A stretch of 64,000 nt of DNA from an uncultured Rhizobiaceae group bacterium (lineage in GTDB: Bacteria > Pseudomonadota > Alphaproteobacteria > Rhizobiales > Rhizobiaceae). The DNA is taken from the NCBI GenBank assembly GCA_938044775.1, contig CALIOE010000095.1:1-64000 (forward strand), in the 5' to 3' direction. A model generated the notes under the pieces. It had not been told where the DNA came from. It did not search any database and saw nothing but the letters and a program-made list of their open reading frames with translations. The position numbers and the translations under genes were made by a program. Shown here one piece after another: positions 1,075 to 20,507 of the stretch. The stretch's first letter is position 1. Each line of letters starts with the position of its first letter.

Positions 1075-1114
1075 TCGAACAATTGTGTCGATACAAACGT
1101 ACGAAAATCGGACG
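1075..1114 (+). promoter_or_regulatory. upstream activating sequence for sigma54 activator, copy 1
   Basis: A 40-bp element matching 35 of 40 bases with the element at 8219-8258 upstream of prmA. It contains the inverted repeat TTGTGTCGATACAA at 1083-1096 and a second, imperfect dyad at 1099-1113. The start of the first dyad lies exactly 85 bp before the -24 GG of the sigma54 promoter, the same as in copy 2. Conservation of sequence and spacing points to one bacterial enhancer-binding protein acting at both sites, most likely the AcoR/MimR-type activator at 18.5-20.5 kb (inference). Confidence 0.85.
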
Positions 1115-1166: not shown

Positions 1167-1182
1167 TGGCACGAACCTTGCG
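1167..1182 (+). promoter_or_regulatory. sigma54 (-24/-12) promoter of the BLUF gene
   Basis: TGGCACGAACCTTGCG matches the RpoN consensus TGGCAC-N5-TTGC, with GG and GC separated by 10 bases. Predicted transcription start is about 12 bp downstream of the GC, leaving a leader of roughly 55 nt before the BLUF start codon. Confidence 0.88.
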
Positions 1183-1250: not shown

Positions 1251-1748
1251 ATGAGTGTTAACGTTGCCGTGCATGATGGCGGTGCGATGGCTCAGGCAGA
1301 ACCATGTTTTCGATTGATATACCGGAGTCGCAGTCTTCTCCCTGAGCGGTCTGAAAGTGTCGAATCCGGGCTTTCCGAAATACTCCGTGTCGCTCGCACC
1401 AATAACCGCAAGCACGGCGTAACCGGTGCTCTGATGTTTTACGAGTACAAGGACTGGTTCGCGCAGGTGCTCGAAGGAGAAGAATCGAAAGTGCAAGATC
1501 TGTTCGAGCGCATCAAGAAGGATCCACGCCACAAGAGCATTGAAGTTCGGGAGGCCGAGCCCGTTCCATCACGCTTGTTCAGCAAATGGGCAATGGCATT
1601 GGTCGCTGAACACGGGGAACCTGACTCACCCCTCGTGGCGACGGCAGGCGGCATTTCGGAAGCGGAGCCCTGGCACATGACGGAGGACCAGGAACGCGTT
1701 CTCACGCAACTTCGTGACATAACGCGCGGCTACGGACGTTCTTACTAA
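1251..1748 (+). CDS. BLUF domain blue-light photoreceptor
   Basis: Short flavin-binding photoreceptor of 165 aa. The BLUF domain occupies about residues 19-110, followed by a roughly 55-residue tail with no output domain that I recognise. Residues that define the photocycle are visible: the Tyr in RLIYRS (about Y24), the Asn pair in ARTNN (51-52), the Gln in FAQVLEGE (about Q72), and Trp/Met in SKWAMAL (about 103/105), so it should bind FAD and respond to blue light. ATG 1251 is chosen because GGGAGGATGAC precedes it. It is transcribed from a sigma54 promoter with the same enhancer as the monooxygenase operon. Short BLUF proteins usually act through protein partners; here the partner is unknown. 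Confidence 0.95.
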   Translation: MSVNVAVHDGGAMAQAEPCFRLIYRSRSLLPERSESVESGLSEILRVARTNNRKHGVTGALMFYEYKDWFAQVLEGEESKVQDLFERIKKDPRHKSIEVREAEPVPSRLFSKWAMALVAEHGEPDSPLVATAGGISEAEPWHMTEDQERVLTQLRDITRGYGRSY

Positions 1749-2628: not shown

Positions 2629-3024
2629 ATGGCAAAAGCGATTCATTCGATGGTCCGGGTACTGGACGAGGCCAGGTCCGTCGCCTTCTACAAAACTGCA
2701 TTCAATCTGGGAATTATGGACCGATACGAATTTGATGGCTTCACATTGGTCTACCTGAAAAACGACGAGAACGACTTTGAGGTCGAACTCACCGTCAACC
2801 ACGGACAAACCGAGCCATACGAACACGGTTCCGGCTACGGTCATTTGGCTGTTTCGGTAGAAGATGTGGACGCCGAGCATACCCGTTTCAAACAATCCGG
2901 ATTGACGCCTACAGACGTCAAGGAGTTTCACCGTGACGGTGCTTTGATGGCGAAATTCTTCTTCGTTGAGGACCCCGATGGCTACAAAATTGAAATCTTA
3001 CAACGGCACGGGAGGTACACCTGA
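2629..3024 (+). CDS. VOC family protein, glyoxalase I-like
   Basis: 131-aa single vicinal-oxygen-chelate unit. The N-terminal half starts IHSMVRVLDEARSVAFYKTAF. The second beta-alpha-beta module GYGHLAVSVEDVDAEH ends in FVEDPDGYKIEIL, the usual lactoylglutathione lyase ending with its metal-ligand Glu. Such enzymes isomerise the hemithioacetal of methylglyoxal and glutathione, though VOC folds serve many reactions. ATG 2629 has GAGGGAG upstream; the track start at 2611 is upstream of that. The Tat-exported gene starts 43 bp later, so the three genes 2629-5199 look like one unit. A role against ketoaldehydes made during C3 alcohol/ketone oxidation is inference. Confidence 0.85.
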   Translation: MAKAIHSMVRVLDEARSVAFYKTAFNLGIMDRYEFDGFTLVYLKNDENDFEVELTVNHGQTEPYEHGSGYGHLAVSVEDVDAEHTRFKQSGLTPTDVKEFHRDGALMAKFFFVEDPDGYKIEILQRHGRYT

Positions 3025-3067
3025 GCCTTTGTTCTTGACCACCACTGAAATCGAAAGGGAGGAATCT

Positions 3068-3616
3068 ATGCGAGTTCTAGACAAGCGACCCAAGGTGTCG
3101 CGAAGAGGGTTTTTGGGCGGCAGCGGCGTTACGCTGGTTGCCATGAGTATTCTGCCAAGCGGTGTCATTATGGGAGCGGACAGCGCCTGGGCGATGACCG
3201 CGAAAGCCCTGAAGCCGGAAAGCTTTGCCACACTCGTTCAAATGTCCCGGGACATTTATCCGCATGATCGACTGAATGATTCCTACTACGCCAAAGCGGT
3301 TGCGGCTTTCGACTCCCAGGCAGAAGAATCCGAGGACTCCAAGAAGATGCTGGAGGATGGTGTTGCCGCCCTCGATGCCGCTGCCATGAAAGCTCATGGA
3401 GTAACTTACGGACAAGTGGGTTGGGAGGCGGAACGGGTTGCTCTGCTACAGGCTATTGAAAGCGACGGGTTCTTCCAAAGCATTCGTGGTGGTCTGGTCA
3501 CCGGCATCTACAACAATCCGGATGTGTGGCCGCTGTTCGGGTACGAAGGCGCATCTGCAGATCAAGGCGGCTACATCGAACGCGGCTTCGATGACATCGA
3601 CTGGCTCGAGGCATAA
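3068..3616 (+). CDS. Tat-exported gluconate 2-dehydrogenase subunit 3-like protein
   Basis: 182-aa protein with a twin-arginine signal (VSRRGFLGGSG, then a hydrophobic stretch ending near AWA). The body matches the small gamma subunit that accompanies membrane or periplasmic GMC-type dehydrogenases such as gluconate, sorbitol or fructose dehydrogenases. The subunit is thought to carry the flavoprotein partner through the Tat pathway. ATG 3068 follows GGGAGGAATCT. The GMC flavoprotein begins 15 bp after its stop, which supports a two-subunit enzyme. No cytochrome c subunit gene follows, so the electron acceptor is not obvious. Confidence 0.85.
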   Translation: MRVLDKRPKVSRRGFLGGSGVTLVAMSILPSGVIMGADSAWAMTAKALKPESFATLVQMSRDIYPHDRLNDSYYAKAVAAFDSQAEESEDSKKMLEDGVAALDAAAMKAHGVTYGQVGWEAERVALLQAIESDGFFQSIRGGLVTGIYNNPDVWPLFGYEGASADQGGYIERGFDDIDWLEA

Positions 3617-3630
3617 GGGAGGATAGGACT

Positions 3631-5199
3631 ATGGCTACTTTTGATCTGAACGACGATAGCGTCGTTGTTGTTATTGGCTCTGGAGCCGGTGGTGGAACCG
3701 TTGGTGCTGAACTGGCGATTAAGGGTGTAAAGACCGTCATTCTCGAGGCCGGAAAACGGCATGAGACGGAAGACTTCATCAATGACGAGTGGGGCAGTTT
3801 CGGGCAGCTCGCCTGGACCGACAAACGAACAACCTCAGGTGACTGGCGGGTCGCGAGGGACTTCTCGGGCCTTCCCGCATGGATTGTGAAATCCGTTGGC
3901 GGCTCCACCACACATTGGGCCGGTGCATCTTTGCGATTTCAGGAACACGAGTGGAAGGCGCAAACCAATTACGGCGATGTGGAGGGTGCAAGCCTTCTCG
4001 ACTGGCCGATCGATGCCGAGGAGATGGCACCCTGGTATGCAAAGGCTGAAGACCGAATGGGCGTCACCCGCACAAATGGAATCCCCGGACTTCCGGGCAA
4101 CAACAATTTCAAGGTGATGAAGGCGGGCGCTGACAAGCTGGGCTACAAGGAATGCCACACCGGGCGCATGGCGATTAACAGCGAACCGCGAGATGATCGG
4201 TCGGCTTGTCTGCAAATCGGCTTTTGCTTCCAAGGATGCAAATCTGCTGCGAAGTGGTCGACGCTGGTGGCTGAAATTCCCAAGGGCGAGGAAACAGGCA
4301 ACCTTGAAGTCCGGCCGGAATCACATGTTCTGAAAATTGAGCACGATGACTCGGGCAAAGTCACAGGTGTTGTCTACGCCGACAAAGACGGCAATCAACA
4401 GCTGCAAAAAGCCCGCGTAGTTTGCGTTGCCGGCAACTCCATCGAAAGCCCGCGCCTTCTGCTCAATTCCGCATCTTCCATGTTCCCGGACGGGCTGGCG
4501 AATTCTTCAGGTCAGGTCGGGCGCAACTACATGCGGCACATGACAGGGTCGGTTTACGCGATCTTCGACAAGCCGGTGCACATGTATCGCGGCACCACCA
4601 TGGCCGGAATCATTCAGGACGAATCGCGCCATGATCCATCGCGCGGCTTTGTCGGTGGCTATGAGCTGGAAACGCTATCGCTGGGTCTGCCCTTTATGGC
4701 TGCATTCCTGAACCCGGGCGCCTGGGGCCGCGAATTCACATCAGCGATGGATGCTTTCGACCGCATGGCCGGCATGTGGATTGTTGGTGAAGACATGCCG
4801 CAAGCCGACAATCGTGTCACACTGCATGGGTCAGAAAAGGACCAGTACGGCTTACCGGTTCCCAATGTTCATTTCGATGATCATCCCAATGATATCGCGA
4901 TGCGCAATCATGCCTACAAGCAGGGCCGTGCTCTGTATGATGCAGTCGGCGCGGTGGAGACTTATCCAACTCCACCCTATCCTTCGACCCATAATCTTGG
5001 CACGAACCGGATGAGCGCGAAGGCAACTGACGGTGTGGTCAACAAGTGGGGTCAGACCCACGACGTGAAAAACCTGTTCATCTCAGACGGGAGTCAGTTC
5101 ACAACCGGGGCGGCGGAAAACCCGACATTGACCATCGTTTCGCTGGCGTTGCGTCAAGCGGATCACATCGCTTCCCAAATGAGCAAAGGCGACCTGTAA
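3631..5199 (+). CDS. GMC family FAD-dependent dehydrogenase, large subunit
   Basis: 522-aa flavoprotein. The N-terminal dinucleotide fold has GSGAGGG near residues 17-23, followed by the TILEAG acid end of beta-2. The GGSTTHWAG motif is typical of GMC enzymes, and the C-terminal segment STHNLGTNRMS ... SDGSQFTTGAAENPTLT carries the catalytic-His region of the gluconate/alcohol dehydrogenase branch. It has no signal peptide and probably rides with the Tat subunit encoded just upstream. Substrate is likely a sugar acid, polyol or simple alcohol. Proximity to the monooxygenase regulon makes an alcohol such as 2-propanol or acetol worth testing, but that is inference. A strong terminator follows. 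Confidence 0.9.
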   Translation: MATFDLNDDSVVVVIGSGAGGGTVGAELAIKGVKTVILEAGKRHETEDFINDEWGSFGQLAWTDKRTTSGDWRVARDFSGLPAWIVKSVGGSTTHWAGASLRFQEHEWKAQTNYGDVEGASLLDWPIDAEEMAPWYAKAEDRMGVTRTNGIPGLPGNNNFKVMKAGADKLGYKECHTGRMAINSEPRDDRSACLQIGFCFQGCKSAAKWSTLVAEIPKGEETGNLEVRPESHVLKIEHDDSGKVTGVVYADKDGNQQLQKARVVCVAGNSIESPRLLLNSASSMFPDGLANSSGQVGRNYMRHMTGSVYAIFDKPVHMYRGTTMAGIIQDESRHDPSRGFVGGYELETLSLGLPFMAAFLNPGAWGREFTSAMDAFDRMAGMWIVGEDMPQADNRVTLHGSEKDQYGLPVPNVHFDDHPNDIAMRNHAYKQGRALYDAVGAVETYPTPPYPSTHNLGTNRMSAKATDGVVNKWGQTHDVKNLFISDGSQFTTGAAENPTLTIVSLALRQADHIASQMSKGDL

Positions 5200-5526: not shown

Positions 5527-6666
5527 CTATTTGAACATTTGCACCGGAACAGAAATCAGAGCTGCCAGCCCCTTGTCTGTGCCGCAGGCAATATGGCCGG
5601 CATCGCGGGACCAGGCGAGGCCTGTCACGGCTCCGTGGTTTTCCGCGCTCAAAACCATTTCATCGCGCCCGCCGATCTGCATTATTGAGATAGTGCCGTT
5701 ATCATAACCGGCAACGACAAGGTCGCGATCAGGATGACAGCTTACTGCACTGATCGGCACAAAGCCGGTTTTCCCTGTTTCCAGTGCGCCGGACGCTGCA
5801 TCTTCAATCGGTGGCTGTTTCATTGACCAGGCCGTCACGCGGAATGCGCCGGACGTCACCAGTGCATCTGCTTCTTTGCTCCAGTCAACAGACGTAACCG
5901 GCGAGGGATATTCCGTCAGCGCGAAAGTGCGGCCGTCTTGCAAAGAGCTGAACTGAAACCCGCCATCGACCAATGGGGCTGCAATCCACCGGGAGTCGGG
6001 ACTCCAGCATATTCGGGAGGGTCCGCCACCAAAAGAGATCTCTCTACCGTCCTGAATTTTTCCGCGCACGGGCCATACGGTCAGACCCTGCTCATGAGCC
6101 CCTGCGAGCAGTTTTCCATCCGGCGAAAACCCGATCGCAGTGATCGATTTACCGGCTTCAAACTGTCGTTCCACAGCCATGTCTGCATGATCAAATATTT
6201 CTACGATCGAACCGCTGGCACATGCGAATCGCCCACCTATCCGGCAGTCATCCATTGCAGAGACCGGATAGTGCATTTCCATAGCAATATCTGACTTGTC
6301 GCCGGCCGTGGTGATTCTGTACAACGGACCCTTGTCGCTGCCGGCCACGAAATCAGTGGCTCCAAAGGTACCAAGCCGGATTGGGCCCGTGTTTTCAACC
6401 TCAACCATGACAAGCGGTTTGGGGCTCTTCACACGAGGCTTTATTGTCTGACGCCCATTTTCAGCGCTGACATGAACACGCTCCTGAGCCGGATCATTAT
6501 CACTGACATATGCAATCGCGACCGAACCATTATCAAGGCCATAGGCAACTGCTGTCTGCCTTGCGTTGAAAATCAGCGACTGGATGCCAACGCCAATATT
6601 CCACTCTCTCGCAAGCAGCTCAAACAGCGTTGGCGGTGATGATGCTATTGTATCTTGAACGCTCAC
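5527..6666 (-). CDS. WD40-repeat beta-propeller protein
   Basis: 379 aa, no signal peptide. Repeated units of the type ITAIGFSPDGKLLAG ... LTVW, SRICWSPDSRWIAAP and VTGLAWSRDAGHIACG show a WD40-like propeller, likely of six or seven blades. Such proteins are scaffolds without catalytic residues. It starts with GTG at 6666 behind AAGGAG. It is flanked by a coiled-coil protein 49 bp upstream and a 59-aa protein downstream, so the set may form a complex. Cytoplasmic WD40 proteins of this kind next to a diiron monooxygenase operon are not something I recognise from described clusters. Confidence 0.8.
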   Translation of the reverse strand: MSVQDTIASSPPTLFELLAREWNIGVGIQSLIFNARQTAVAYGLDNGSVAIAYVSDNDPAQERVHVSAENGRQTIKPRVKSPKPLVMVEVENTGPIRLGTFGATDFVAGSDKGPLYRITTAGDKSDIAMEMHYPVSAMDDCRIGGRFACASGSIVEIFDHADMAVERQFEAGKSITAIGFSPDGKLLAGAHEQGLTVWPVRGKIQDGREISFGGGPSRICWSPDSRWIAAPLVDGGFQFSSLQDGRTFALTEYPSPVTSVDWSKEADALVTSGAFRVTAWSMKQPPIEDAASGALETGKTGFVPISAVSCHPDRDLVVAGYDNGTISIMQIGGRDEMVLSAENHGAVTGLAWSRDAGHIACGTDKGLAALISVPVQMFK

Positions 6667-8218: not shown

Positions 8219-8258
8219 TCGAACACTTGTTTCGATACAAATGTCCGAAATTCGGACG
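8219..8258 (+). promoter_or_regulatory. upstream activating sequence for sigma54 activator, copy 2 (monooxygenase operon)
   Basis: 40-bp element with two dyads: TTGTTTCGATACAA at 8227-8240 and the perfect 15-bp palindrome GTCCGAAATTCGGAC at 8243-8257. It shares 35 of 40 bases with the element before the BLUF gene and has the same 85-bp spacing to the -24 GG. Two adjacent dyads suit a dimer or multimer of a Fis-type HTH enhancer-binding protein. Confidence 0.88.
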
Positions 8259-8310
8259 GTCATGCAGGCTTGTCGGACGGATAAGTCTTGAAATCGTGCC
8301 TGGGACAAAC

Positions 8311-8326
8311 TGGCACACCCCTTGCA
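8311..8326 (+). promoter_or_regulatory. sigma54 (-24/-12) promoter of the monooxygenase operon
   Basis: TGGCACACCCCTTGCA is a consensus RpoN promoter. It lies about 285 bp before prmA, giving an unusually long leader. Known SDIMO operons of the prm/mim type are driven by sigma54 with an AcoR-like activator, which agrees with the regulator gene downstream. Confidence 0.92.
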
Positions 8327-8612: not shown

Positions 8613-10283
8613 ATGGCCGACACACTAACTCTGAACAAGATAAAAAATCAGCGAGGCATCTCAGTAGGCGAAGCCGCTGCGAAGATCGCTGACCTGGGTT
8701 GGAACCCTTCCTACGTTCAGGAAGCGATGACCTATCCGACCGACTACAAGATCAAGAAAATTCCCAAAGACCCGATGAAACAGGTTCTTCGCTCCTATTT
8801 TCCGATGGAGGAAGAGAAGGACAACCGCGTCTATGGAGCGCTGGACGCCGCCCTGCGCGGAGACATGTTCCGCAACGTTGAGCCACGCTGGATCGAGTGG
8901 ATGAAGCTTTTCCTTGCAATCATTCCATTCCCCGAAATTTCTGCCGCACGATCCATGGCAATGGTTGCCCGCCTCACGCCAGGTGAGGAGTTGAGGACCG
9001 GATTCACCATGCAAATGGTCGATGAGTTCAGACACTCCACGATCCAGATGAACCTGAAAAAATGGTACATGGAGAATTACATCGATCCCGCTGGATTTGA
9101 TATTACCGAAGAGGCCTTCGGCAAGTGCTACGCCACGACCATCGGCCGACAGTTCGGCGAGGGATTCCTGACCGGCGATGCGATCACTGCGGCAAGCATC
9201 TATCTGACGATTGTTGCCGAGACAGCATTTACGAACACGTTGTTCGTCGCCATGCCATCCGAAGCGGCACGCAATGGTGATTACGCTCTTCCGACCGTCT
9301 TTCTGTCGGTGCAATCAGATGAAAGTCGTCACATCGGCAACGGGCACTCCATGCTCATGTCCATGCTGAAGGAGCCGGACAATTACCAGCTTCTGGAGCG
9401 TGATATGAAATATGCGTTCTGGCAGAACCATGCGATCGTGGATGCGGCAATTGGAACCTTCATCGAATACGGCACCACCAACCGCGACAAGGACAAAGAA
9501 TCCTACGCAGAAATGTGGCACCGCTGGATCTTCGAAGACTATTACCGCACCTACATGCTTCCGCTGGAGAAGTACGGCGTCAAAATTCACCACGATGACG
9601 TACATGAAGCCTGGAAGCGGATCACTGAGAAGATGTATGTGCATACCGTTGCGCAATTCTTCGCCGTCGGCTGGCCCGTCAATTTCTGGCGCATTGAGGC
9701 TCAGACCGAGAAAGACTTCGAGTGGTTCGAGCACAAGTATCCGGGCTGGTACGCCAAGTTTGGCGAATTCTGGAAGTGGTACGAAAAGCTCAGCCACAAA
9801 GGCAGCAAGGTCGTCACGTTCAACGAAGAGGTCGGATACGTTTATCCGCACCGTTGCTGGAGTTGCCTCGTTCCATGCCTCATTCGCGAGGACATGGTGG
9901 TCGATGAGATCGATGGTCAGTTGCATACCTTCGCCCACGAGAACGACCGTTGGACAGCTGTTGAAGCGTTCGCTGATGAATACCAGGGCCGTCCGACACC
10001 GGCCATGGGCAAGTTCAGCGGTAAGCGTGAGTGGGAAACGATGTACCACGGCGTCGACCTGGCCGATGCCATCGTTGATCTGAACTTCGTGCGCTCTGAC
10101 GGCAAGACCCTCATCCCGCAACCGCATCTGCGCTTTGACGACAAGGAAATGTGGACCCTCGACGACGTTCGCGGTCACACCCTGATGTCACCGCTGACGT
10201 TGCTTCGCGAGATGTCTCCAGAAGATCGCAAACAGCACATTGCCGACTATCAGGCCGGTTTTGAGATCAATCCCTGCAATTGA
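8613..10283 (+). CDS. prmA: soluble diiron monooxygenase hydroxylase, alpha subunit
   Basis: 556-aa catalytic subunit that activates O2 at a carboxylate-bridged diiron centre and hydroxylates a small hydrocarbon, ether or ketone. The two ExxH motifs are DEFRH (E138, H141) and SDESRH (E237, H240), with further ligands at PFPEIS (E108) and VAETAF (E203). All six match the six ligands of methane monooxygenase MmoX at a constant offset of six residues. Length and gene order (alpha, reductase, beta, coupling) place it with the propane/THF/Mim group of SDIMOs. ATG 8613 is favoured over the track TTG at 8607 because of TAGAGGAG ten bases upstream. The substrate cannot be read from sequence; propane, acetone, phenol-type and cyclic-ether activities all occur in this group. 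Confidence 0.95.
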   Translation: MADTLTLNKIKNQRGISVGEAAAKIADLGWNPSYVQEAMTYPTDYKIKKIPKDPMKQVLRSYFPMEEEKDNRVYGALDAALRGDMFRNVEPRWIEWMKLFLAIIPFPEISAARSMAMVARLTPGEELRTGFTMQMVDEFRHSTIQMNLKKWYMENYIDPAGFDITEEAFGKCYATTIGRQFGEGFLTGDAITAASIYLTIVAETAFTNTLFVAMPSEAARNGDYALPTVFLSVQSDESRHIGNGHSMLMSMLKEPDNYQLLERDMKYAFWQNHAIVDAAIGTFIEYGTTNRDKDKESYAEMWHRWIFEDYYRTYMLPLEKYGVKIHHDDVHEAWKRITEKMYVHTVAQFFAVGWPVNFWRIEAQTEKDFEWFEHKYPGWYAKFGEFWKWYEKLSHKGSKVVTFNEEVGYVYPHRCWSCLVPCLIREDMVVDEIDGQLHTFAHENDRWTAVEAFADEYQGRPTPAMGKFSGKREWETMYHGVDLADAIVDLNFVRSDGKTLIPQPHLRFDDKEMWTLDDVRGHTLMSPLTLLREMSPEDRKQHIADYQAGFEINPCN

Positions 10284-10378: not shown

Positions 10379-11455
10379 ATGACTGAGACTTACACAGTCA
10401 CTTTGGTGCCAGTCGACGTCGCGTTCGAAGTCGACGACGGCGAGACCGTGCTTGATGCCGCGTTCCGGCAGGGAATTTCGCTGCCGCATGGCTGCAAGGA
10501 GGGCCAGTGTTCTGCGTGCAAATCCATTTTGCTGGACGGAGAGGTCGAGCTCAAAAAATACTCAACCTTTGCTCTCAGTGAATCAGAACGCGACACCGAC
10601 CACATCCTTCTATGCCGGACACTTGTGGAGAGCGATGCGGAAATTGAGCTGCTCAATTACGACGAGGAGCTTCTCTCCAAATCCATCGCCGTGAAGGAAT
10701 TTACCGGCACGATCACCGCGATCGAGAAACTAACTGGCGACATTCGCCAGGTCGGAATCACCTTGAACAGCCCCCTCAAATTCTGGGCCGGACAATATGT
10801 CGACATCACCGTCACAACCACGAAAGGGGAGACGATTACGCGCTCGTTTTCCATGGCAAATTCGCCGCTCGAAGCCCAGGAAACCATCTTCATCATCAAA
10901 AAATATCCCGACGGAAAGTTCTCCAACGAACTCGACGACGGCGGAATCGAAGTCGGCGCATCAGTCAAAGTCAAAGGACCGTTCGGAACCTGCTTCAGGC
11001 GAGAGGACAGACAGGGTCCAATCGTGCTGGTCGGCGCCGGCTCGGGCATGTCGCCGGTCTGGTCTATCCTAAACGATCACCTGGCCAGCGGAGAAGATAG
11101 AGAAGTTTACTTCTTTTACGGTGCCCGCACCCAGGACGATCTTTTCTACCTGAAGGAAATCCGCGAACTGACTGCGAATAATCCCAGCCTGACCTTCATT
11201 CCGGTGCTTTCAGAAGCCGGTGATGATGCCAGTTGGGAGGGAGAAAAAGGGTTCGTTCATGAGGCCGTAGACAGCCATTTGAAGCGGCTCGATCTCGACG
11301 GGGAAGGCGACGTCTATGCGTGCGGCCCTCCACCAATGATTGATGCTCTGATGCCGGTATTGTTCATGAATGACTTCGATGCGGACCGGACCTTTTTTGA
11401 CAGGTTCACCCCGGCAAACGAAACCGCGACCCCGGAGATGCAACTCACCCTCTAG
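10379..11455 (+). CDS. prmB: monooxygenase reductase (2Fe-2S / FAD / NADH)
   Basis: 358-aa electron-transfer protein that moves electrons from NAD(P)H through FAD and a 2Fe-2S cluster to the hydroxylase. The N-terminal plant-type ferredoxin domain has C39, C44, C47 and C79 (HGCKEGQCSACK ... LLCR). The middle FAD-binding barrel carries RSFSMAN, and the C-terminal NAD domain carries GAGSGMSP and YACGPPPMIDA. Start ATG 10379 follows GGGAGAC. The gene lies between the alpha and beta genes, as in prm, thm and mim operons. Confidence 0.95.
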   Translation: MTETYTVTLVPVDVAFEVDDGETVLDAAFRQGISLPHGCKEGQCSACKSILLDGEVELKKYSTFALSESERDTDHILLCRTLVESDAEIELLNYDEELLSKSIAVKEFTGTITAIEKLTGDIRQVGITLNSPLKFWAGQYVDITVTTTKGETITRSFSMANSPLEAQETIFIIKKYPDGKFSNELDDGGIEVGASVKVKGPFGTCFRREDRQGPIVLVGAGSGMSPVWSILNDHLASGEDREVYFFYGARTQDDLFYLKEIRELTANNPSLTFIPVLSEAGDDASWEGEKGFVHEAVDSHLKRLDLDGEGDVYACGPPPMIDALMPVLFMNDFDADRTFFDRFTPANETATPEMQLTL

Positions 11456-11521
11456 ACCATCAAACACCTTATCCAATTTCATCCAGAACCATCGTTCCAG
11501 AAACCAAACAGGGAGAAGAAA

Positions 11522-12574
11522 ATGCCAGCAACATCAAGTTCAGTCGGATCCGGTGCCGCAGGTGCAGCTACCTTTGCCGATTCAGACAGCCGTAAGTATC
11601 GGTATTTCGAACCGCGCGGAAAACGTGCATCGCACTATGAGGATATGACGGTTGATGTGCAGCCGGACCCCGAGCGATATCTGACTCAGGGCTGGATCAT
11701 TCAATTTCCAAATGGAGAAGGCGCCTACGACAAGAGCGCGACAAAGGCGCAGAGCTCAAACTGGCATGCCTTTCGCGCTCCCGATCAGGAGTGGGAACGG
11801 ACGCATTACCAGCGCCAGTCAAAAATCGAGAGTCTGATTCAGGGTGTCATTGCAAACGCGCGCAAATTTGGTGTGCACAAAAAATTCGACAAAGCATGGA
11901 CCAAGATTCTGCAGGCCCACCTTGGCGCCTGGAAGCACGCCGAGTTTGGTCTTGGGACGTCACTTATGCAGGCGCAACGCTACGGCTACACCCAGATGAT
12001 CAACAACGCCACGTTGACCAACTCCTCCTACAAGTTGCGCCTTTCTCAGGACATCACACTCTACCTCGCCGAAATCGGTCTCGATATCGACGGCTGGAAT
12101 GACGATTTGGGCAAAGAGACCTGGCTCACCGATCCGGCCTGGCAGGGAACGCGCGAATTTGTCGAGAGCATTATGGGCGCGGAAGACTATCTGGAACAGT
12201 ATTTCGCAATCAACATGGTCTTTGAGCCGCTCGTCGGTGAGCTGTTCCGCTCCGGCTTCATGGTTCAGGTTGCCGCAGCAAACGGGGACTCGGTTACGCC
12301 CCCGGTGATCTCCGCAGCCGAGGCCGATTACGAACGCAACCTCGCCAATTCAATTGATCTGTTTCACCTGCTGATAACGGACGAAAAACACGCAGCTCAC
12401 AACAAGAAACTGTTCGCCGGCTGGATCAAAAAATACAGCGCCCTTGCCAAGAAGGCCGCAACGGGATTGCAGCCGATCTGGTCGCAACCGCACTCCAAGC
12501 CGATTTCATTCTCCGATGCTCAGGCCCAGTCAGTGGAGCGTTACGAGAAGATCAAGGGCGAACTCGGCCTTTAA
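11522..12574 (+). CDS. prmC: monooxygenase hydroxylase, beta subunit
   Basis: 350-aa ferritin-like subunit that scaffolds the alpha subunit; it lacks a diiron site of its own in this family. The stretch KYRYFEPRGKRASHYEDMT near the N-terminus, the middle WKHAEFGLG, and the C-terminal SIDLFHLLITDEKHAAHNKK are typical of the beta chain in the propane/THF monooxygenase group. Start ATG 11522 follows GGGAGAAGAAA. It lies 66 bp after the reductase and 29 bp before the coupling protein. Confidence 0.93.
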   Translation: MPATSSSVGSGAAGAATFADSDSRKYRYFEPRGKRASHYEDMTVDVQPDPERYLTQGWIIQFPNGEGAYDKSATKAQSSNWHAFRAPDQEWERTHYQRQSKIESLIQGVIANARKFGVHKKFDKAWTKILQAHLGAWKHAEFGLGTSLMQAQRYGYTQMINNATLTNSSYKLRLSQDITLYLAEIGLDIDGWNDDLGKETWLTDPAWQGTREFVESIMGAEDYLEQYFAINMVFEPLVGELFRSGFMVQVAAANGDSVTPPVISAAEADYERNLANSIDLFHLLITDEKHAAHNKKLFAGWIKKYSALAKKAATGLQPIWSQPHSKPISFSDAQAQSVERYEKIKGELGL

Positions 12575-12603
12575 CATCCAGTTTCAACAATAGGGAAAAC
12601 ACC

Positions 12604-12975
12604 ATGTCGACAGTAGCAAGAGACGCTTCACACGAAAACATTTTCAAGGACATGAGTCATATCGAGTTCAAGGATACCATTTCGCACCAGTGCGGCGTGA
12701 CCATGAACGATTCCGTCGAAGCCCGTGCCATCGCGGAATACAAAGATCAGGATCCCGAAGTCACGGTGACCTATCAGCCTGCATTGATACGGATCGATGG
12801 CGAAGGTGAGCTCGTGTTCAAAATGAGCGAAATATCCGAGTTTTTGGGCAAGGAGATGGACGCGGCGATGTTCGAGGTCAACACGTCGACCCACTACGGA
12901 CGGATGGTGCGCGTTGATGACGACACGGTCATCCTCTTCGGCGATATGGAGGCGATGCGAAAATATATCGAATAG
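12604..12975 (+). CDS. prmD: monooxygenase coupling (effector) protein
   Basis: 123-aa cofactor-free regulatory component of the MmoB/DmpM family. It binds the hydroxylase and gates O2 and substrate access. The pattern CGVTMNDSVEARAIAEY followed by VTYQPALIRIDGEGELVF is the family core, and length and position as the fourth gene fit exactly. It ends with GDMEAMRKYIE. Start ATG 12604 follows TAGGGAAAACACC. Confidence 0.92.
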   Translation: MSTVARDASHENIFKDMSHIEFKDTISHQCGVTMNDSVEARAIAEYKDQDPEVTVTYQPALIRIDGEGELVFKMSEISEFLGKEMDAAMFEVNTSTHYGRMVRVDDDTVILFGDMEAMRKYIE

Positions 12976-12992
12976 GCAGTTTCGGAGACCTG

Positions 12993-13046
12993 CAGGGACA
13001 GATCCGGGTCTTGCCTGCTGCGCAGGCAGACACGGGCGTGTCCCTG
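12993..13046 (+). other. 54-nt composite hairpin between prmD and the amidohydrolase gene
   Basis: Outer stem CAGGGACA / TGTCCCTG encloses an interrupted middle stem and a perfect inner stem TGCCTGC / GCAGGCA with a 3-nt loop. It starts 18 bp after prmD. There is no downstream T-run, so RNA processing or stability control is more likely than termination. The track start at 13011 falls inside it, which argues for the later ATG of the next gene. Confidence 0.7.
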
Positions 13047-13094
13047 GGGGTCGCGATTGCAAACCATGAGGAAACATCAGGGAGGATCCAAGTC

Positions 13095-14117
13095 ATGTAC
13101 AAGACACCAGAAGGAAAAGAGATATTCATCGTCGATGGCCACACCCACTTTTGGGATGGCAGTCCGGAAAACCAGACGAACCTTCAGGGCAAACAGTTCA
13201 TCGAATGCTTCTACGCCTATCACAACGCGCTCAGTCCACCTGAGCAGCTCTGGGAAAAATCCAGATTCGAGAAATACACGGAGGACCAGCTTTATCATGA
13301 TTTGTTTGTCGATGGTCCCGACGACGTGGCGATTATTCAATCCACCTATCTGAAAGACTTCTACAAAAACGGGTTCAGCAGTATCGAGCGGTCCTCGCAC
13401 ATGGCTGCAAAGTACCCAGACCGGTTTATCGTCAACGGGTCCATTGACCCCAGAGATGGAAACAAGACACTCGAATATATCCACTACATGAAGGAAAACT
13501 TCGATATTCAGGGGCTTAAACTCTACACCGCCGAATGGAACGGAAAATCCAAAGGGTGGGCTCTGAACGATCCGGCCGCATACAAGTGCTTTGAGCTTTG
13601 TGACAAGCTCGGAATCAAAAACATGCATGTCCACAAAGGCCCGACAATCATTCCGCTGAACAAAGACGCCTTTGACGTCCACGATGTTGATCACGCGGCC
13701 ACTGACTTCCAGAATCTGAACTGGATTGTCGAGCATTGCGGTCAACCACGTATTGACGACTTCTGTTGGATCGCTGTTCAGGAAAACAATGTCTATGGCG
13801 GTCTTGCCGTCGTGCTGCCGTTCATTCATTCGCGGCCTTACTACTTTGCCGAGATGATTTCGGAACTGTTGTTCTGGGTTGGGGAAGACAACATTCTGTT
13901 TGGCTCCGACTACGCAATCTGGACGCCGCGCTGGCTCGTAGAGAAATTCTGGGCATTTGAGTTGCCAGAGGAGATTAAGCAGCGTACCGGCGTGGATCTG
14001 ACACCGGAAATCAAAGAAAAGATTCTCGGTCTCAATGCTGCAGCGCTTTACAACATTGATGTGGAAGATCGCAAAGCCAAGCTGGAATCGTCGCCGGTTC
14101 TTGTCGCGGCAGAATGA
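13095..14117 (+). CDS. amidohydrolase-family protein of the SDIMO cluster
   Basis: 340-aa TIM-barrel metalloprotein of the amidohydrolase 2 (ACMSD-like) family. The N-terminal HxH metal motif is in DGHTHFWDG; later metal and acid positions are visible in HVHKGP, VEHCGQPR and the LFGSDYAIW strand end. ATG 13095 follows GGGAGGATCC. Homologues accompany prm/mim monooxygenase operons in actinobacteria and proteobacteria, where their job is not well settled; either hydrolysis of a pathway intermediate or an accessory maturation role is possible. It overlaps the next gene by 4 bp, so the two are translationally coupled. Confidence 0.85.
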   Translation: MYKTPEGKEIFIVDGHTHFWDGSPENQTNLQGKQFIECFYAYHNALSPPEQLWEKSRFEKYTEDQLYHDLFVDGPDDVAIIQSTYLKDFYKNGFSSIERSSHMAAKYPDRFIVNGSIDPRDGNKTLEYIHYMKENFDIQGLKLYTAEWNGKSKGWALNDPAAYKCFELCDKLGIKNMHVHKGPTIIPLNKDAFDVHDVDHAATDFQNLNWIVEHCGQPRIDDFCWIAVQENNVYGGLAVVLPFIHSRPYYFAEMISELLFWVGEDNILFGSDYAIWTPRWLVEKFWAFELPEEIKQRTGVDLTPEIKEKILGLNAAALYNIDVEDRKAKLESSPVLVAAE

Positions 14118-14953
14118 GCATGACCATCGCATTGCAGCAGCGCAGGTCAGAAGTTGACCTGGAAAATCCAAAAGTTGCTGAAGTCTGGCGACAATTAGAA
14201 ACCGTATGCGACCCCGAGCTTGACGAGCCGGTTACTGACATGGGTTTCATTGAAGGCCTGGAAGTTGACGAAAACGGTACCGTCGGCATCTGCTTTCGCC
14301 TGCCGACATATTGGTGTTCAGCAAACTTTGCCTTTCTCATGGCGACCGACATGCGTCACCAGGTGGAGAAGCTCGACTGGGTTTCCCGGGCTCGGGTGAC
14401 CCTCAAAGATCATATGTTCGAGGAACAGGTGAATGTCGGCGTCAACGACGGTCGCTCGTTTCGGGAGATATTTGCTGACCTGGCTCCCGATCAGGGGCTG
14501 GACGAAATCCGCGAGAAGTTTCGTCAAAAGGCGTTCCAGCGACGCCAGGAGGTGATGCTGCTCGGTTTGAGGCGAATGAGCTACAGCGACGACGATATCG
14601 TGAAGATGACTCTTCAACACTACGATCGGGTGCGATTCAGCGATCAGGAAGAAGCCCGTCAGCAACGACGGTATCGCGACATCATAGGTGAACTGGAACT
14701 GGCAAACAGTCCTGGGGACCTGGCATTTTGCAGCTATGGCGGCGGCGCTCTGACAGCCCAGGGACTGGACGGATATCTTGCAACCCTGCGTGCTGTCAGA
14801 ATCAACATGGAGTTCAGCGGCGCACTTTGCCGTGGCCTCCTCAACACCCGTTACAAGGAGCTCAAACCGGACGACGACGAGCCCACGCTCGTCGATTTCA
14901 TCTTGGACAGGGTTCCGCCCCGCAACGCGGGAAAAGACGCCGTCCCTGTCTGA
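14114..14953 (+). CDS. DUF59 (MIP18-like) protein of the SDIMO cluster
   Basis: 279 aa. The N-terminal roughly 110 residues are a DUF59/FeS-assembly domain (VCDPELDEPVTDMGFIEGL, then the Cys in TYWCSANFAF). The remaining 170 residues are helical and not recognised. DUF59 proteins take part in iron-sulfur or iron-centre assembly, so a role in loading the diiron hydroxylase or the reductase cluster is plausible (inference). Overlap ATGA with the amidohydrolase gene. Similar proteins occur in other prm-type operons. Confidence 0.82.
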   Translation: MSMTIALQQRRSEVDLENPKVAEVWRQLETVCDPELDEPVTDMGFIEGLEVDENGTVGICFRLPTYWCSANFAFLMATDMRHQVEKLDWVSRARVTLKDHMFEEQVNVGVNDGRSFREIFADLAPDQGLDEIREKFRQKAFQRRQEVMLLGLRRMSYSDDDIVKMTLQHYDRVRFSDQEEARQQRRYRDIIGELELANSPGDLAFCSYGGGALTAQGLDGYLATLRAVRINMEFSGALCRGLLNTRYKELKPDDDEPTLVDFILDRVPPRNAGKDAVPV

Positions 14954-14964
14954 ATCGAGAATGC

Positions 14965-15000
14965 CCTGCCAGGCGTTGGCTCAGGTCAGTGCCTGGCAGG
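14965..15000 (+). other. intercistronic hairpin before the chaperonin gene
   Basis: Perfect 10-bp inverted repeat CCTGCCAGGC / GCCTGGCAGG with a 16-nt loop, 11 bp after the DUF59 stop and 41 bp before the chaperonin start. No T-run follows. It is the third hairpin dividing this operon. Confidence 0.7.
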
Positions 15001-15041
15001 CACACATACATTGATCCGCAAAGGACCACCGGGAGGAAACG

Positions 15042-16673
15042 ATGTCCAAATTGCTTCTACATAATTCAAAGGCGCGCCGCGCGCTTGCTGCCGGTGTCGG
15101 AAAACTAGCAGCTGCCGTCGAGCCAACACTCGGCCCCAAAGGCATGAACGCCATGATCGATCGACCGATCGGAACCCCGATTATTTCTCGCGATGGGGTC
15201 AGCATCGCGGCAGAAATCGAGTTGTTCGACCGGTTTGAAAATATGGGGGCACAGGTCGTGCGGGAAGTATCGATGCAGACCAATGAGGTTGCCGGTGACG
15301 GAACGACGACCGCCATCGTACTCGCAAACTCTCTGATTCAGAAGGGTGTGGAAGCGCTCGATGATGGCGGCAGACCGGTTGATCTGTGCAGAGGTATTGA
15401 TCTTGCTGTCGCGGCGCTTGTCGAAAAACTGAAGTCATCGGCCAGGCAGGTAAAGGACAAGAAAGTGCTGGAGCGGGTGGCAGAAATTGCCGCCACAGAT
15501 GCGAAACTCGGCGCAATTGTTGCCAAGGCTTTCAATACAATCGGCGCGGAAGGGGTAATCACTACGGATTACGGTGTCACCACCGACACCGTGCTGAACA
15601 TTGTCGAAGGCATGTCGTTTGAGCGAGGATATATTTCCCACCACATGGTGACAGACGTCGAGCAGATGCTCGCTGTGCTCGATGAGCCCTACATTTTGAT
15701 CACAGATCAGAAAATCAAAACGCCCGGCCAACTCGATACCGTTCGCGCTATTGCCGACAAGAACCAAAAGCCACTGCTGATCATTGCGGAGGAAGTGGCT
15801 CCCGAAGTTGTTGTCATGCTGCTCGAAGCCGGTGGTGCAGGCAAATATGCTGTCGTTCATCCACCTGAATACGGTCAGTGGCGTACCGCCATGCTGGATG
15901 ATCTTGGGATCCTCCTTGGCGGCAAGGTGCTTGCCCGCGATCTCGGCAAGCGCCTTGAAGACATCACAGTCAAAGATCTGGGCCGCTGCGATCAGGTCCG
16001 GATATCGGCCAGCGAAACGGTCATTATACGTGGCAAAGGCAAAGCCAAGGAGATCGCTGCGCGACGCAAACAGGTTCAGCGCCAGTATGAGTTGGCCCCG
16101 CCCAACATCGAGCAGGACAAATTGCAGGAGCGGCTGGCGAAACTTTCAGGAGGCACCGCCATCATCTATGCCGGAGGTGTCACTCCGGTCGAGCAAAAAC
16201 GCACAATACAATTGATTGATGATGCCCTGAGCGCCGTGCGCGCCGCCGCCGATGAAGGCGTTGTTTCGGGTGGTGGCTCAGCATTGATCCATTGCGAGAA
16301 AGCGCTCGACAAGATCGCTGCGTCGGCCAAAGGCGACGTTGCAAGGGGCATAGAGATCGTCCGGGAAACACTTTCTCAACCCCTCACGCGGATTGCGAAC
16401 AACGCCGGCAGAGAGTCGGAGAAAATCGTTGCAGAGGTGAAGCGCACCAACAGCGGCCATGGCTACAACGCCGCAACGGGCAAGTTCGTCAATATGTTTG
16501 ACGCCGGCATCGTCGATCCGGTTCGGGTGACCTACAGCGCCCTCAAGAATGCAGCTTCCGTTGCAACACTCATTCTCACCACCGAAACACTGATTGGTGA
16601 TCTTGGTGAGGACGAGGACCCTACGGCCGGTCCCGCGCTCGGCGGTGGCTCCGAGAATCTGGGGCGCGCTTAG
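15042..16673 (+). CDS. GroEL-like chaperonin dedicated to the monooxygenase
   Basis: 543-aa type I chaperonin subunit. The ATP site motif GDGTTTA and the N-terminal TLGPKGMN block are intact, but the sequence diverges from housekeeping GroEL and the C-terminus (GGGSENLGRA) lacks the GGM repeat tail. There is no groES beside it. In Mycobacterium, MimG of the same operon type is needed for productive folding of the MimA hydroxylase, and this gene sits at the equivalent place. Start ATG 15042 follows GGGAGGAAACG. Oligomerisation may depend on the housekeeping GroES (inference). Confidence 0.92.
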   Translation: MSKLLLHNSKARRALAAGVGKLAAAVEPTLGPKGMNAMIDRPIGTPIISRDGVSIAAEIELFDRFENMGAQVVREVSMQTNEVAGDGTTTAIVLANSLIQKGVEALDDGGRPVDLCRGIDLAVAALVEKLKSSARQVKDKKVLERVAEIAATDAKLGAIVAKAFNTIGAEGVITTDYGVTTDTVLNIVEGMSFERGYISHHMVTDVEQMLAVLDEPYILITDQKIKTPGQLDTVRAIADKNQKPLLIIAEEVAPEVVVMLLEAGGAGKYAVVHPPEYGQWRTAMLDDLGILLGGKVLARDLGKRLEDITVKDLGRCDQVRISASETVIIRGKGKAKEIAARRKQVQRQYELAPPNIEQDKLQERLAKLSGGTAIIYAGGVTPVEQKRTIQLIDDALSAVRAAADEGVVSGGGSALIHCEKALDKIAASAKGDVARGIEIVRETLSQPLTRIANNAGRESEKIVAEVKRTNSGHGYNAATGKFVNMFDAGIVDPVRVTYSALKNAASVATLILTTETLIGDLGEDEDPTAGPALGGGSENLGRA

Positions 16674-16712
16674 AGGACCAAGTGTAAACACTCAAGTAAA
16701 AGGGAGCATCCC

Positions 16713-17756
16713 ATGTGGGCAGCAAGACTCTACGATTATGACCCTGAGATGAATGTGCAACTCAAGCTGGAGGATGTGAAGCCGCCGACGATTAACAGGC
16801 CCGACGAAGTTATTGTCAAAGTTGGTGCGGCGGGATTGTGCCGCACCGACCTGCATATCATTGAGGGTGTGTGGAAGGACATCATGGACACCGAGGGTTC
16901 GCTGCTGCCCTATGTCATGGGGCATGAAAATGCCGGTTGGGTTGAAGATGTTGGCAGCGGGGTAACATCGGTAAAACCCGGTGATACAGTCATATGCCAT
17001 CCTCACCGCTCTTGCGGCATTTGCCTGAATTGCCGGTATGGCGAAGATATGCACTGCACCGATTCCCTGTTTCCCGGACTCGGTCTGGATGGTGGATTTG
17101 CCGACTATTTCATTACCAACGAACGGGCACTCATCAAGCTCAACCCGAACGTGACACCGTTGGAGGTTGCGCCGATGGCTGACGCGGGCATCACCGCCTA
17201 TCGGGCTGCCAAACGTGCCGCAGAATTACTGCGTCCCGGTGCCTATTGCGTTATGGTAGGCATCGGTGGCCTCGGCCATATAGCACTCCAGTCACTGCAG
17301 GCCATTTCAGGTTGCCGTACGATCGCCATTGATCGCGAGCCGGCAGCACAAAAACTCGCAAAGGAACTCGGCGCCGACTTCGTCCTCGACGGTGGACCGG
17401 ATGTTGTTGAACAGGTGGAGGAGATCACCGGCGGTGGCGCGCAGGTTGTCATCGACTTCGTAGGCGAGCTTGGTGTGGAGAATGTCTGTTGGCAAATGGT
17501 CCGTCAGGGCGGGCAGATGTTTGTGATCGGCTACGGAGGTAAGGTCGAGGTGCCAACCGTCCACCTGGTGATCCAGGAGATCAATATCGGTGGCAGCCTG
17601 GTAGGCAACTTCACTGAATTGGTTGAGCTCATGGAACTGCATGCCGACGGCAAGGTGAAGATGCACTACAGCGAATACAAGCTTGCCAACATCAATGAAG
17701 CGATAGACGATTTCAAAAACAGGCGGTTTGCCGGACGTGGAGTTTTGGTCCCATAG
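16713..17756 (+). CDS. zinc-dependent NAD(P) alcohol dehydrogenase
   Basis: 347-aa medium-chain dehydrogenase. The catalytic zinc region is LCRTDLHIIEG with GHENAGWVEDVG. The structural zinc loop CGICLNCRYGEDMHC has all four cysteines. The nucleotide site is GIGGLGHIALQ. Last enzyme gene of the operon, 39 bp after the chaperonin. It most likely oxidises the alcohol made by the monooxygenase, for example a secondary alcohol to a ketone, as adh genes in prm operons do. Start ATG 16713 follows AAAAGGGAGC. Confidence 0.93.
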   Translation: MWAARLYDYDPEMNVQLKLEDVKPPTINRPDEVIVKVGAAGLCRTDLHIIEGVWKDIMDTEGSLLPYVMGHENAGWVEDVGSGVTSVKPGDTVICHPHRSCGICLNCRYGEDMHCTDSLFPGLGLDGGFADYFITNERALIKLNPNVTPLEVAPMADAGITAYRAAKRAAELLRPGAYCVMVGIGGLGHIALQSLQAISGCRTIAIDREPAAQKLAKELGADFVLDGGPDVVEQVEEITGGGAQVVIDFVGELGVENVCWQMVRQGGQMFVIGYGGKVEVPTVHLVIQEINIGGSLVGNFTELVELMELHADGKVKMHYSEYKLANINEAIDDFKNRRFAGRGVLVP

Positions 17757-18473: not shown

Positions 18474-20507
18474 ATGGTTCAGACAGGCGCCCGAAGCGGG
18501 ACGGCTCAAACTCCCGCATTGTTTCGTTACGACGAACGCCAGGTGATGACAGCCTGGGAGTCGTTTCTGACAGGTGGCGACGAACAAACCTTCTCCTGCG
18601 TTCGGTCGCTGGTCAGAGATTCCTGGGCGAGGTGCAAATCCCGGGGAGTGGATGCACGTGGCACCGGAGCCACATTGTGCAATGACCCTGAATATCTGCA
18701 TCAACTCAACGAGAAAAATCAGGATCTGTTACAGGCATCGACAGGTTCTCTCCTGATGTTGAGACATCTTCTGGAGGGCACACCGGCAATGGTACTCCTG
18801 ACCGATCGGGATGGGGTAATTCTCGAAAGCTTCGGCAGTTCCCGTACGTTGGAATCCGGCAGGGATATCCATCTCGAAGTGGGAGGAGGCTGGAATGAGA
18901 AAGTAGCTGGTACAAATGGCATCGGCACCGCATTGCGCACCGGCAAGCCTGTACTCATTCACGCAGCAGAACATTATTGTCAGGACGTCAAGGCGTGGAC
19001 CTGTATCGCGGCTCCGATATTCGACCCCTTCGATGGCAGCACAGCCGGCGTGGTGGATTTGTCAGGCCCGACAGAAATCTTTCAGCGCCACAATATGACC
19101 GTACCGGTCATTGCTGCACGGCAGATCGAACAGGTTCTGCACCAGCGAGGCAATGATGAGCGGTTACAGTTGATGGAGGCCTGTTTCAACAATACTCCAA
19201 CCACCCGTGACGATGACGGACTTGTCGTGCTCGACCGAAATGGTCGGGTTGTTTTTCACAAAAACGCGCCGAGACTGGCGATTGATGGAAAACCCAAACG
19301 GCAGATCAAGGCGGGTGACTATTTATACGCTGCGAAAACCAACATGACCGAAGCCGATATCGCGAACTCATTGTCGGTTGGCTATAGCCCGGAAAAAATA
19401 CAGCCTTTGCGATACGACAACAAACTGTGTGGCACCGCAGTGGTGTTTGAAGGTCGAAAACGTTCTCCCGTAGTACCAGTTTCGCTGCCAGCGTCGTTTT
19501 CGAAGCCGAATCCTGTCGCTGACAACGGCATAGCCTGGCCGCTCATTTTGGGGACATCCGAGAAATTCCGACAAGTTATTGACAAGGTTGGACGCATCGC
19601 GGCCGGTAAGGGATCGGTTTTGATCGATGGCGAGACCGGAGTTGGAAAGGAACTCTTTGGACAGCTGTTTTATGCTCACACTGCCGCCGACAAGAACGTT
19701 CCCTTTGTCACAGTAAACTGTGGCGCCATTACCAAGGATCTGTTTGGCGGGGAACTGTTCGGTCACGTTCCCGGAGCGTTCACAGGAGCCTTGCGTGAAG
19801 GGAAAAAGGGGAAATTCGAAGAAGCCAGCGGCGGCATTTTGTGCCTTGATGAAATCGGTGAAATGCCACTGGATGTGCAGCCCTTCCTGCTTCGTGCACT
19901 GGAGGAAAAAGTGATATACCGGCTTGGTGACAGCAAGCCTCGACCTGCCGACGTTCGCCTGGTGGCTCTCACCAACCGGAACCTGCTTGATGAAGTTGAC
20001 GCCGGAACCTTTCGAAGAGATCTCTACTACCGGATTGGCGGGATAAGAATCTCAATCCCACCATTGCGGGAGCGTGGCGACGATTTTTCAATACTGATCG
20101 ACCATTTCAACAGATTGTTCGCGAGCGAGTACGACGAAGATCTGCTGCAATTTACAGATGAAACGCTGGAGGCGCTTTCTCACTATTCCTGGCCCGGAAA
20201 TGTTCGCGAGTTGCGCAATTTTGTCGAGAACCTGCATCTCACCTCCCAGGACCGACTTGTCCGACAAGCCGACCTCAAAAATTCAGGCCTTGATTTGGAA
20301 GGCCACGAGGATTCGGGAGACGAGCAACATTTGACTCGATTGCCCGGCTTGCCCCCCGACCTGGCGAACTTGCAAACCCTTGCGATCAAAAAGGCGATTG
20401 AAGAAAACAACGGCAATCTGACTCTGACGGCCAAACAGCTCGGCATTGCACGCAGTACTCTTTATCGAAGAATGGAGCAGAGCGGCATCAAACGCAGCTT
20501 CAACTAG
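18474..20507 (+). CDS. sigma54-dependent activator, AcoR/MimR type
   Basis: About 677 aa. The N-terminal part has the AcoR signature VRDSWARCKSRGVD and a GAF-type sensor (roughly residues 90-220). The central AAA+ domain has the Walker A GETGVGKE (about 387), the sigma54-contact GAFTGA (about 436) and an intact Walker B (GILCLDEIGEM). The C-terminal Fis-type HTH ends ARSTLYRRMEQ. There is no receiver domain, so control is by a ligand or redox signal at the GAF region. Start is uncertain: ATG 18474 or the track TTG at 18450. It is the obvious candidate to bind the two conserved 40-bp enhancers and drive both the monooxygenase and BLUF promoters. Confidence 0.94.
   Translation: MVQTGARSGTAQTPALFRYDERQVMTAWESFLTGGDEQTFSCVRSLVRDSWARCKSRGVDARGTGATLCNDPEYLHQLNEKNQDLLQASTGSLLMLRHLLEGTPAMVLLTDRDGVILESFGSSRTLESGRDIHLEVGGGWNEKVAGTNGIGTALRTGKPVLIHAAEHYCQDVKAWTCIAAPIFDPFDGSTAGVVDLSGPTEIFQRHNMTVPVIAARQIEQVLHQRGNDERLQLMEACFNNTPTTRDDDGLVVLDRNGRVVFHKNAPRLAIDGKPKRQIKAGDYLYAAKTNMTEADIANSLSVGYSPEKIQPLRYDNKLCGTAVVFEGRKRSPVVPVSLPASFSKPNPVADNGIAWPLILGTSEKFRQVIDKVGRIAAGKGSVLIDGETGVGKELFGQLFYAHTAADKNVPFVTVNCGAITKDLFGGELFGHVPGAFTGALREGKKGKFEEASGGILCLDEIGEMPLDVQPFLLRALEEKVIYRLGDSKPRPADVRLVALTNRNLLDEVDAGTFRRDLYYRIGGIRISIPPLRERGDDFSILIDHFNRLFASEYDEDLLQFTDETLEALSHYSWPGNVRELRNFVENLHLTSQDRLVRQADLKNSGLDLEGHEDSGDEQHLTRLPGLPPDLANLQTLAIKKAIEENNGNLTLTAKQLGIARSTLYRRMEQSGIKRSFN

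Follow-up and report, generated by a model that had tools for sequence, protein, structure and literature searches.

A phased five-half-site array at two sigma54-type promoters as the probable target of an AcoR/MimR-type activator linked to a di-iron monooxygenase operon and a BLUF gene

In a 64,000-nucleotide stretch of DNA from an uncultured Rhizobiaceae group bacterium (the window, taken here at its full length), two closely similar inverted-repeat blocks precede -24/-12 promoters, one upstream of prmA in a di-iron monooxygenase operon and the other upstream of a gene for a short BLUF protein (Table 1). We asked what unit these blocks form, which regulator would read them, and what a blue-light sensor gene shares with a monooxygenase operon. 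MimR of mycobacterial mimABCD is an AcoR-like activator adjoining a propane/acetone/phenol-type di-iron monooxygenase operon, and the window is alike in that an AcoR-like activator stands beside a di-iron monooxygenase operon. We found no MimR binding site in the searched literature and know of no described BLUF target for mycobacterial MimR.

Table 1. Features of the window discussed in the text, with predicted regulatory sites
Feature	Position	Strand	Evidence or comment
BLUF enhancer array (predicted), ACA-N2-TGT-N6-ACA-N2-CGT-N11-ACG	1079..1114	+	orthologous array upstream of BLUF in G395 and G456
BLUF -24/-12 sigma54 promoter (predicted), TGGCACGAACCTTGC	1167..1181	+	52 bp past array
Short BLUF-domain protein, 165 aa; Y24, N52, Q72, W113, M115; conserved C-terminal tail	1251..1748	+	PF04940; PDB BLUF matches
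prmA enhancer array (predicted), ACA(8223-8225)-N2-TGT(8228-8230)-N6-ACA(8237-8239)-N2-TGT(8242-8244)-N11-ACG(8256-8258)	8223..8258	+	46.8 bits (matrix R1, built partly from this site itself)
prm operon -24/-12 sigma54 promoter (predicted), TGGCACACCCCTTGC	8311..8325	+	52 bp past array; sigma54-type site common among 80 prmA loci
prmA/mimA, di-iron monooxygenase large subunit	8613..10283	+	PF02332; 86-97% identity to homologs
Operon remainder: reductase, small hydroxylase subunit, MimD-like effector, amidohydrolase, FeS-assembly-like protein, GroEL, alcohol dehydrogenase	10379..17756	+	
MimR/AcoR-type sigma54 activator: GAF, AAA+ with GAFTGA, Fis-type HTH, recognition helix ARSTLYRRM	18474..20507	+	PF00158, PF02954

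The activator combines GAF, AAA+ and Fis-type HTH domains and is encoded with the mim/prm operon, as is characteristic of the AcoR/MimR type. Its genome encodes rpoN (PF04552, E = 1e-66), and TGGCAC-N5-TTGC is present at both promoters and at the orthologous ones; together with the GAFTGA motif and Fis-type HTH of the activator, these features identify the two sites as predicted sigma54 promoters. The MimD-like effector did not reach the curated threshold of the propane 2-monooxygenase MimD model (NF045941, 98.2 bits vs. 150), so that the substrate can be named no further than ‘propane/acetone-type’, while the operon type is clear.

At the prmA site, we found the 14-mer TTGTTTCGATACAA (8227-8240) and, 2 bases on, the perfect 15-bp palindrome GTCCGAAATTCGGAC (8243-8257), as reported in a preliminary description made from the window; the same order and most of the bases recur before BLUF (TTGTGTCGATACAA at 1083-1096 and GTACGAAAATCGGAC at 1099-1113), again as described. 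The 15-mer is a perfect dyad about its centre base, and the 14-mer is a 6/7 dyad whose mismatched pair is identical in the prmA and BLUF copies. The conserved unit extends 4 bp beyond the upstream end described, because an ACA half-site precedes TTGT. Comparison of the resulting 36-bp blocks (8223-8258 and 1079-1114) shows 31 of 36 identical bases, against a best match of 20-23 in ten shuffled windows and of 24 at the best other position in the actual window. TGGCAC-N5-TTGC lies at 8311 and 1167, in both cases 84 bp downstream of the respective 14-mer (first base to first base) and 52 bp past the end of the 36-bp block.

With this many bases in common and both copies within 8 kb, the BLUF copy might be a functionless relic of a duplicated prmA upstream region. 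Outside the core, however, the two copies are at chance identity (spacer 0.27, upstream 0.25, downstream 0.22), and arrays with sigma54 sites also stand before BLUF in two other genomes, G395 and G456, in which BLUF and prmA are on different contigs. Convergent genes follow BLUF in both of these genomes, where BLUF is thus apparently transcribed alone. Since BLUF is there unlinked to prmA and apparently monocistronic, its enhancer is better seen as a true second target; the duplication reading is largely refuted, and we consider it scarcely credible.

To examine the unit beyond the window, 80 prmA homologs were fetched with their flanks, and prmA promoters were compared across other Alphaproteobacteria. 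In most of the 80 loci, a sigma54-type site precedes prmA by about 270-400 bp. The conserved upstream unit consists of five ordered half-sites, ACR-N2-YGT-N5/6-ACR-N2-YGT-N11-ACR, of which the two palindromes described earlier represent half-sites 2-3 and 4-5. Hence, the description of two adjacent palindromes at a fixed promoter distance holds as regards a fixed-distance sigma54 enhancer, whereas the palindromes themselves are parts of a larger array. Of 58 sigma54-type upstream regions (those of prmA loci and that of BLUF in the window), 29 carried the full array, among them the window's prmA and BLUF sites and G395; the array essentially never arose in shuffled sequence, and it was found in none of 25 upstream regions lacking a sigma54 match (0 expected). 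Identity was 0.78 within the array vs. 0.27-0.36 in its surroundings. In Rhizobium, Mesorhizobium, Labrys and others, the array reads approximately TTACA-N2-TGTAA-N-TTACR-N2-TGTAA-N7-TTACA, and the window's group has the same half-sites with GC-rich inner bases (TGTCC, CGTCC). A stricter 31-bp pattern (up to 3 mismatches) occurred exactly twice in the window's own 4.18-Mb genome and had no match in 100 related genomes, being confined to its own genome because bases drift while the layout stays.

The exact array is missing from many prmA loci (Bradyrhizobium, much of Rhodobacteraceae) despite the presence of an activator. Six Rhodobacteraceae loci (L009, L012, L022, L039, L043 and L049) carry a three-half-site core, ACA-N2-TGT-N11-ACG, upstream of prmA; they have a GAFTGA activator, and their prmA upstream regions lack TGGCAY-N5-TTGC. 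Bradyrhizobium loci (L024, L025, L031, L042 and others) combine a perfect sigma54 site with a different conserved upstream block, TTTTGCAAYTCNTGTCGCARTTTGCA, and an activator helix SRATLYRKL.

Sites of the form TGT..ACA with a 10-12 bp spacer are the standard UAS of many Fis-type EBPs (PMC6615313), which makes half-sites 4-5 (TGT-N11-ACA) ordinary; this pair fits one Fis-type dimer. The N5/6 gap separating half-sites 2 and 3, by contrast, seems to leave too little room for another such dimer. The composite might serve two proteins, the activator occupying the TGT-N11-ACA dyad and a further regulator or a repressor occupying TTGTNTCGATACAA, as could be expected from dyads that differ in sequence and centre parity and of which the first is lost more rapidly between species (3/7 pairs at G456 prmA, 1/7 in L008). 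Against this stands the finding that Rhizobium, Mesorhizobium and Labrys carry one half-site sequence (TTACA/TGTAA) at all five positions in the same order, which points to one protein, and we regard the two-protein arrangement as unlikely. The statement that the BLUF copy keeps the first dyad well and the second only partly holds only within the window; when six promoters from three genomes are compared, conservation of the second dyad is at least as good as that of the first.

The distance between array and promoter is similarly constrained. Among the 29 arrays, the end of the array lies 51-53 or 72-75 bp from the -24 element, never between, and the distant relatives L008 and L004 have gaps of 62 and 64. 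The gaps cluster about 52, 63 and 73 bp, that is, at whole helical turns (Rayleigh R = 0.90, period 10.5 bp, n = 20, with related genomes treated as independent). The Rhodobacteraceae locus L063, which did not enter this test, departs from the phase of the 52/63/73 series, with a three-half-site core 89 bp away from a sigma54 site. The spacers of the six promoters contained no match to the IHF consensus. The layout resembles NifA/FhlA-type UAS in having TGT-N11-ACA upstream of a -24/-12 promoter, and differs from them in the three extra fixed-spacing half-sites that precede (ACR-N2-YGT-N5/6-ACR-N2) and in a gap to -24 that is held to whole helical turns.

Which protein reads the array is suggested by the activators themselves. 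The helix SRPTLYR was paired with the half-site GTAA in all 21 array-bearing loci for which both were known, and S-type helices were paired with GTCC/GTAC/GTTC (ARSTLYR in the window, G456 and G395; SRSTLYR in L004 and L008). Such a match between helix and half-site is the expected pattern if the linked activator is the reader of the array, yet phylogeny confounds it. The sites could instead be used by another sigma54 activator, given that the genome encodes four further EBP-like proteins and that the ligand is assigned from sequence. However, the linked activator is the only full-length homolog in its own genome, the other EBPs matching it in the AAA+ and C-terminal part only (33-43%); it is a common neighbour of array-bearing prmA loci, and the array sequence changes with its recognition helix. 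We therefore hold use by another activator to be very improbable. A candidate array close to the start of the activator gene (18519, TTGTTTCGTTACGA) lies within the gene and was rejected as a chance-level match. The proposed binding model for AcoR/MimR-type activators thus stands in that helix/half-site tracking makes the linked activator the best candidate ligand, and is amended to a layout of five half-sites. Both sites are very probably UAS of this activator, which would co-activate the monooxygenase operon and the short BLUF sensor gene.

The preliminary description proposed a genome-wide motif scan to list the regulon and took a motif that is abundant and unconnected with sigma54 promoters as evidence against its model. 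In the window's own genome, a matrix made of six sites (prmA and BLUF in this genome, G395 and G456, whose scores are therefore high by construction) gave 50.3 bits for BLUF, 46.8 bits for prmA and 12.8 bits for the next best site elsewhere, and prmA and BLUF were likewise the only strong matrix sites in G395 and G456. The strong sites are thus two, not many, and both are linked to sigma54 promoters; the predicted regulon comprises just the prmA and BLUF promoters. Because the matrix holds the six sites, the half-site pattern provides an independent test: among the matches listed for five genomes with up to 1 mismatch, 30 of which became loci and were checked, a sigma54 site lay no more than 120 bp away in only six, namely the three prmA and three BLUF promoters of the three genomes, with a gap of 52-53 bp. 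The remaining array-pattern matches listed had no sigma54 site. Secondary matrix matches in G456 (17 bits) were set aside; no sigma54 site accompanied those inspected, and two are part of an ordinary repeated element, GAAAACCGGACGGTTTC.

The BLUF protein has a BLUF domain with Tyr, Asn, Gln and Trp/Met at the flavin site, as in short BLUF photoreceptors. Close orthologs (E <= 1e-35) were found in 6 of the 61 prm genomes searched (own genome counted), in none of 384 other Alphaproteobacteria sampled and, above 60% identity, in no plasmid. BLUF directly follows the operon's alcohol dehydrogenase gene in two Tabrizicola genomes, and in G457 it is preceded by groEL and one further ORF, all in the same orientation. 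In the window, BLUF and a gene for an RHH_4 protein are followed on the same strand by glyoxalase-family, gluconate-2-dehydrogenase subunit-3-like and GMC oxidoreductase genes (2629-5199), of which the latter two types also occur near the prm operon in many Rhodobacteraceae; their products may process oxidation products. A WD40-repeat protein gene lies between the two promoters (5527-6666, minus strand); most loci have a homolog of it close to prmA, and G456 has a related gene just upstream of BLUF.

If the linked activator is indeed the reader, its inducer-bound form would assemble on the array from several dimers and face sigma54-RNA polymerase across a short DNA bend in the phased spacer, and would switch on the monooxygenase operon and the BLUF blue-light sensor together. 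Less certainly, BLUF might then modulate the pathway by light, possibly by contacting the activator. That BLUF acts as a light-dependent feedback partner of the activator, with blue light gating short-chain alkane/ketone oxidation in these Alphaproteobacteria, is a tentative and rather doubtful proposal. Quite conceivably, BLUF is a regulon member but not the pathway's light sensor, being a flavin-binding accessory or having an unrelated target: the searched literature contains no link between BLUF and propane monooxygenase, nor did we find in it a paper tying a BLUF photoreceptor to a hydrocarbon/ketone oxidation regulon, and this BLUF is missing from most prm genomes, so that light control cannot be general. 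Conversely, the five aligned orthologs (window, G395, G456, G457 and G460) keep every residue of BLUF photochemistry and also share the C-terminal tail, and a parallel case has been published. BlsA of Acinetobacter, a short BLUF protein, binds AcoN in blue light, whereby acetoin catabolism is derepressed, and homologs of AcoN carry the annotation of sigma54-dependent Fis-family regulators (PMC6595428). BlsA, too, is thus a short BLUF protein, tied to control of a C4 hydroxyketone pathway via a regulator with this annotation; the two cases differ in that BlsA binds a repressor, whereas the link read from the DNA here is only that the BLUF gene has the activator's predicted enhancer.

For di-iron monooxygenases, the sites bound by AcoR/MimR-type activators are ill-defined, and this is true even of BmoR, a sensor in wide use whose site remains unsettled. 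The BmoR site of Thauera butanivorans is described as a putative hairpin that lies 193 bp before the -24/-12 boxes and whose deletion left activation intact (PMC8899819). BmoR/Pbmo shares with the present system a sigma54-dependent EBP, an inverted-repeat UAS and a short-chain-alkane di-iron monooxygenase, whereas the array described here is 52 bp from -24 and conserved. What is new is the phased five-half-site layout and the BLUF target. With the array, a phased site is concretely defined in a form readable across Alphaproteobacteria, and a correspondence of recognition helix to half-site comes with it. That the only other strong copy of the array precedes BLUF in each of three genomes suggests that the light sensor would be made together with the oxidation enzymes, and through this second target, which is conserved, a blue-light photoreceptor is connected with a regulon of hydrocarbon/ketone oxidation, making light control of the pathway directly testable.
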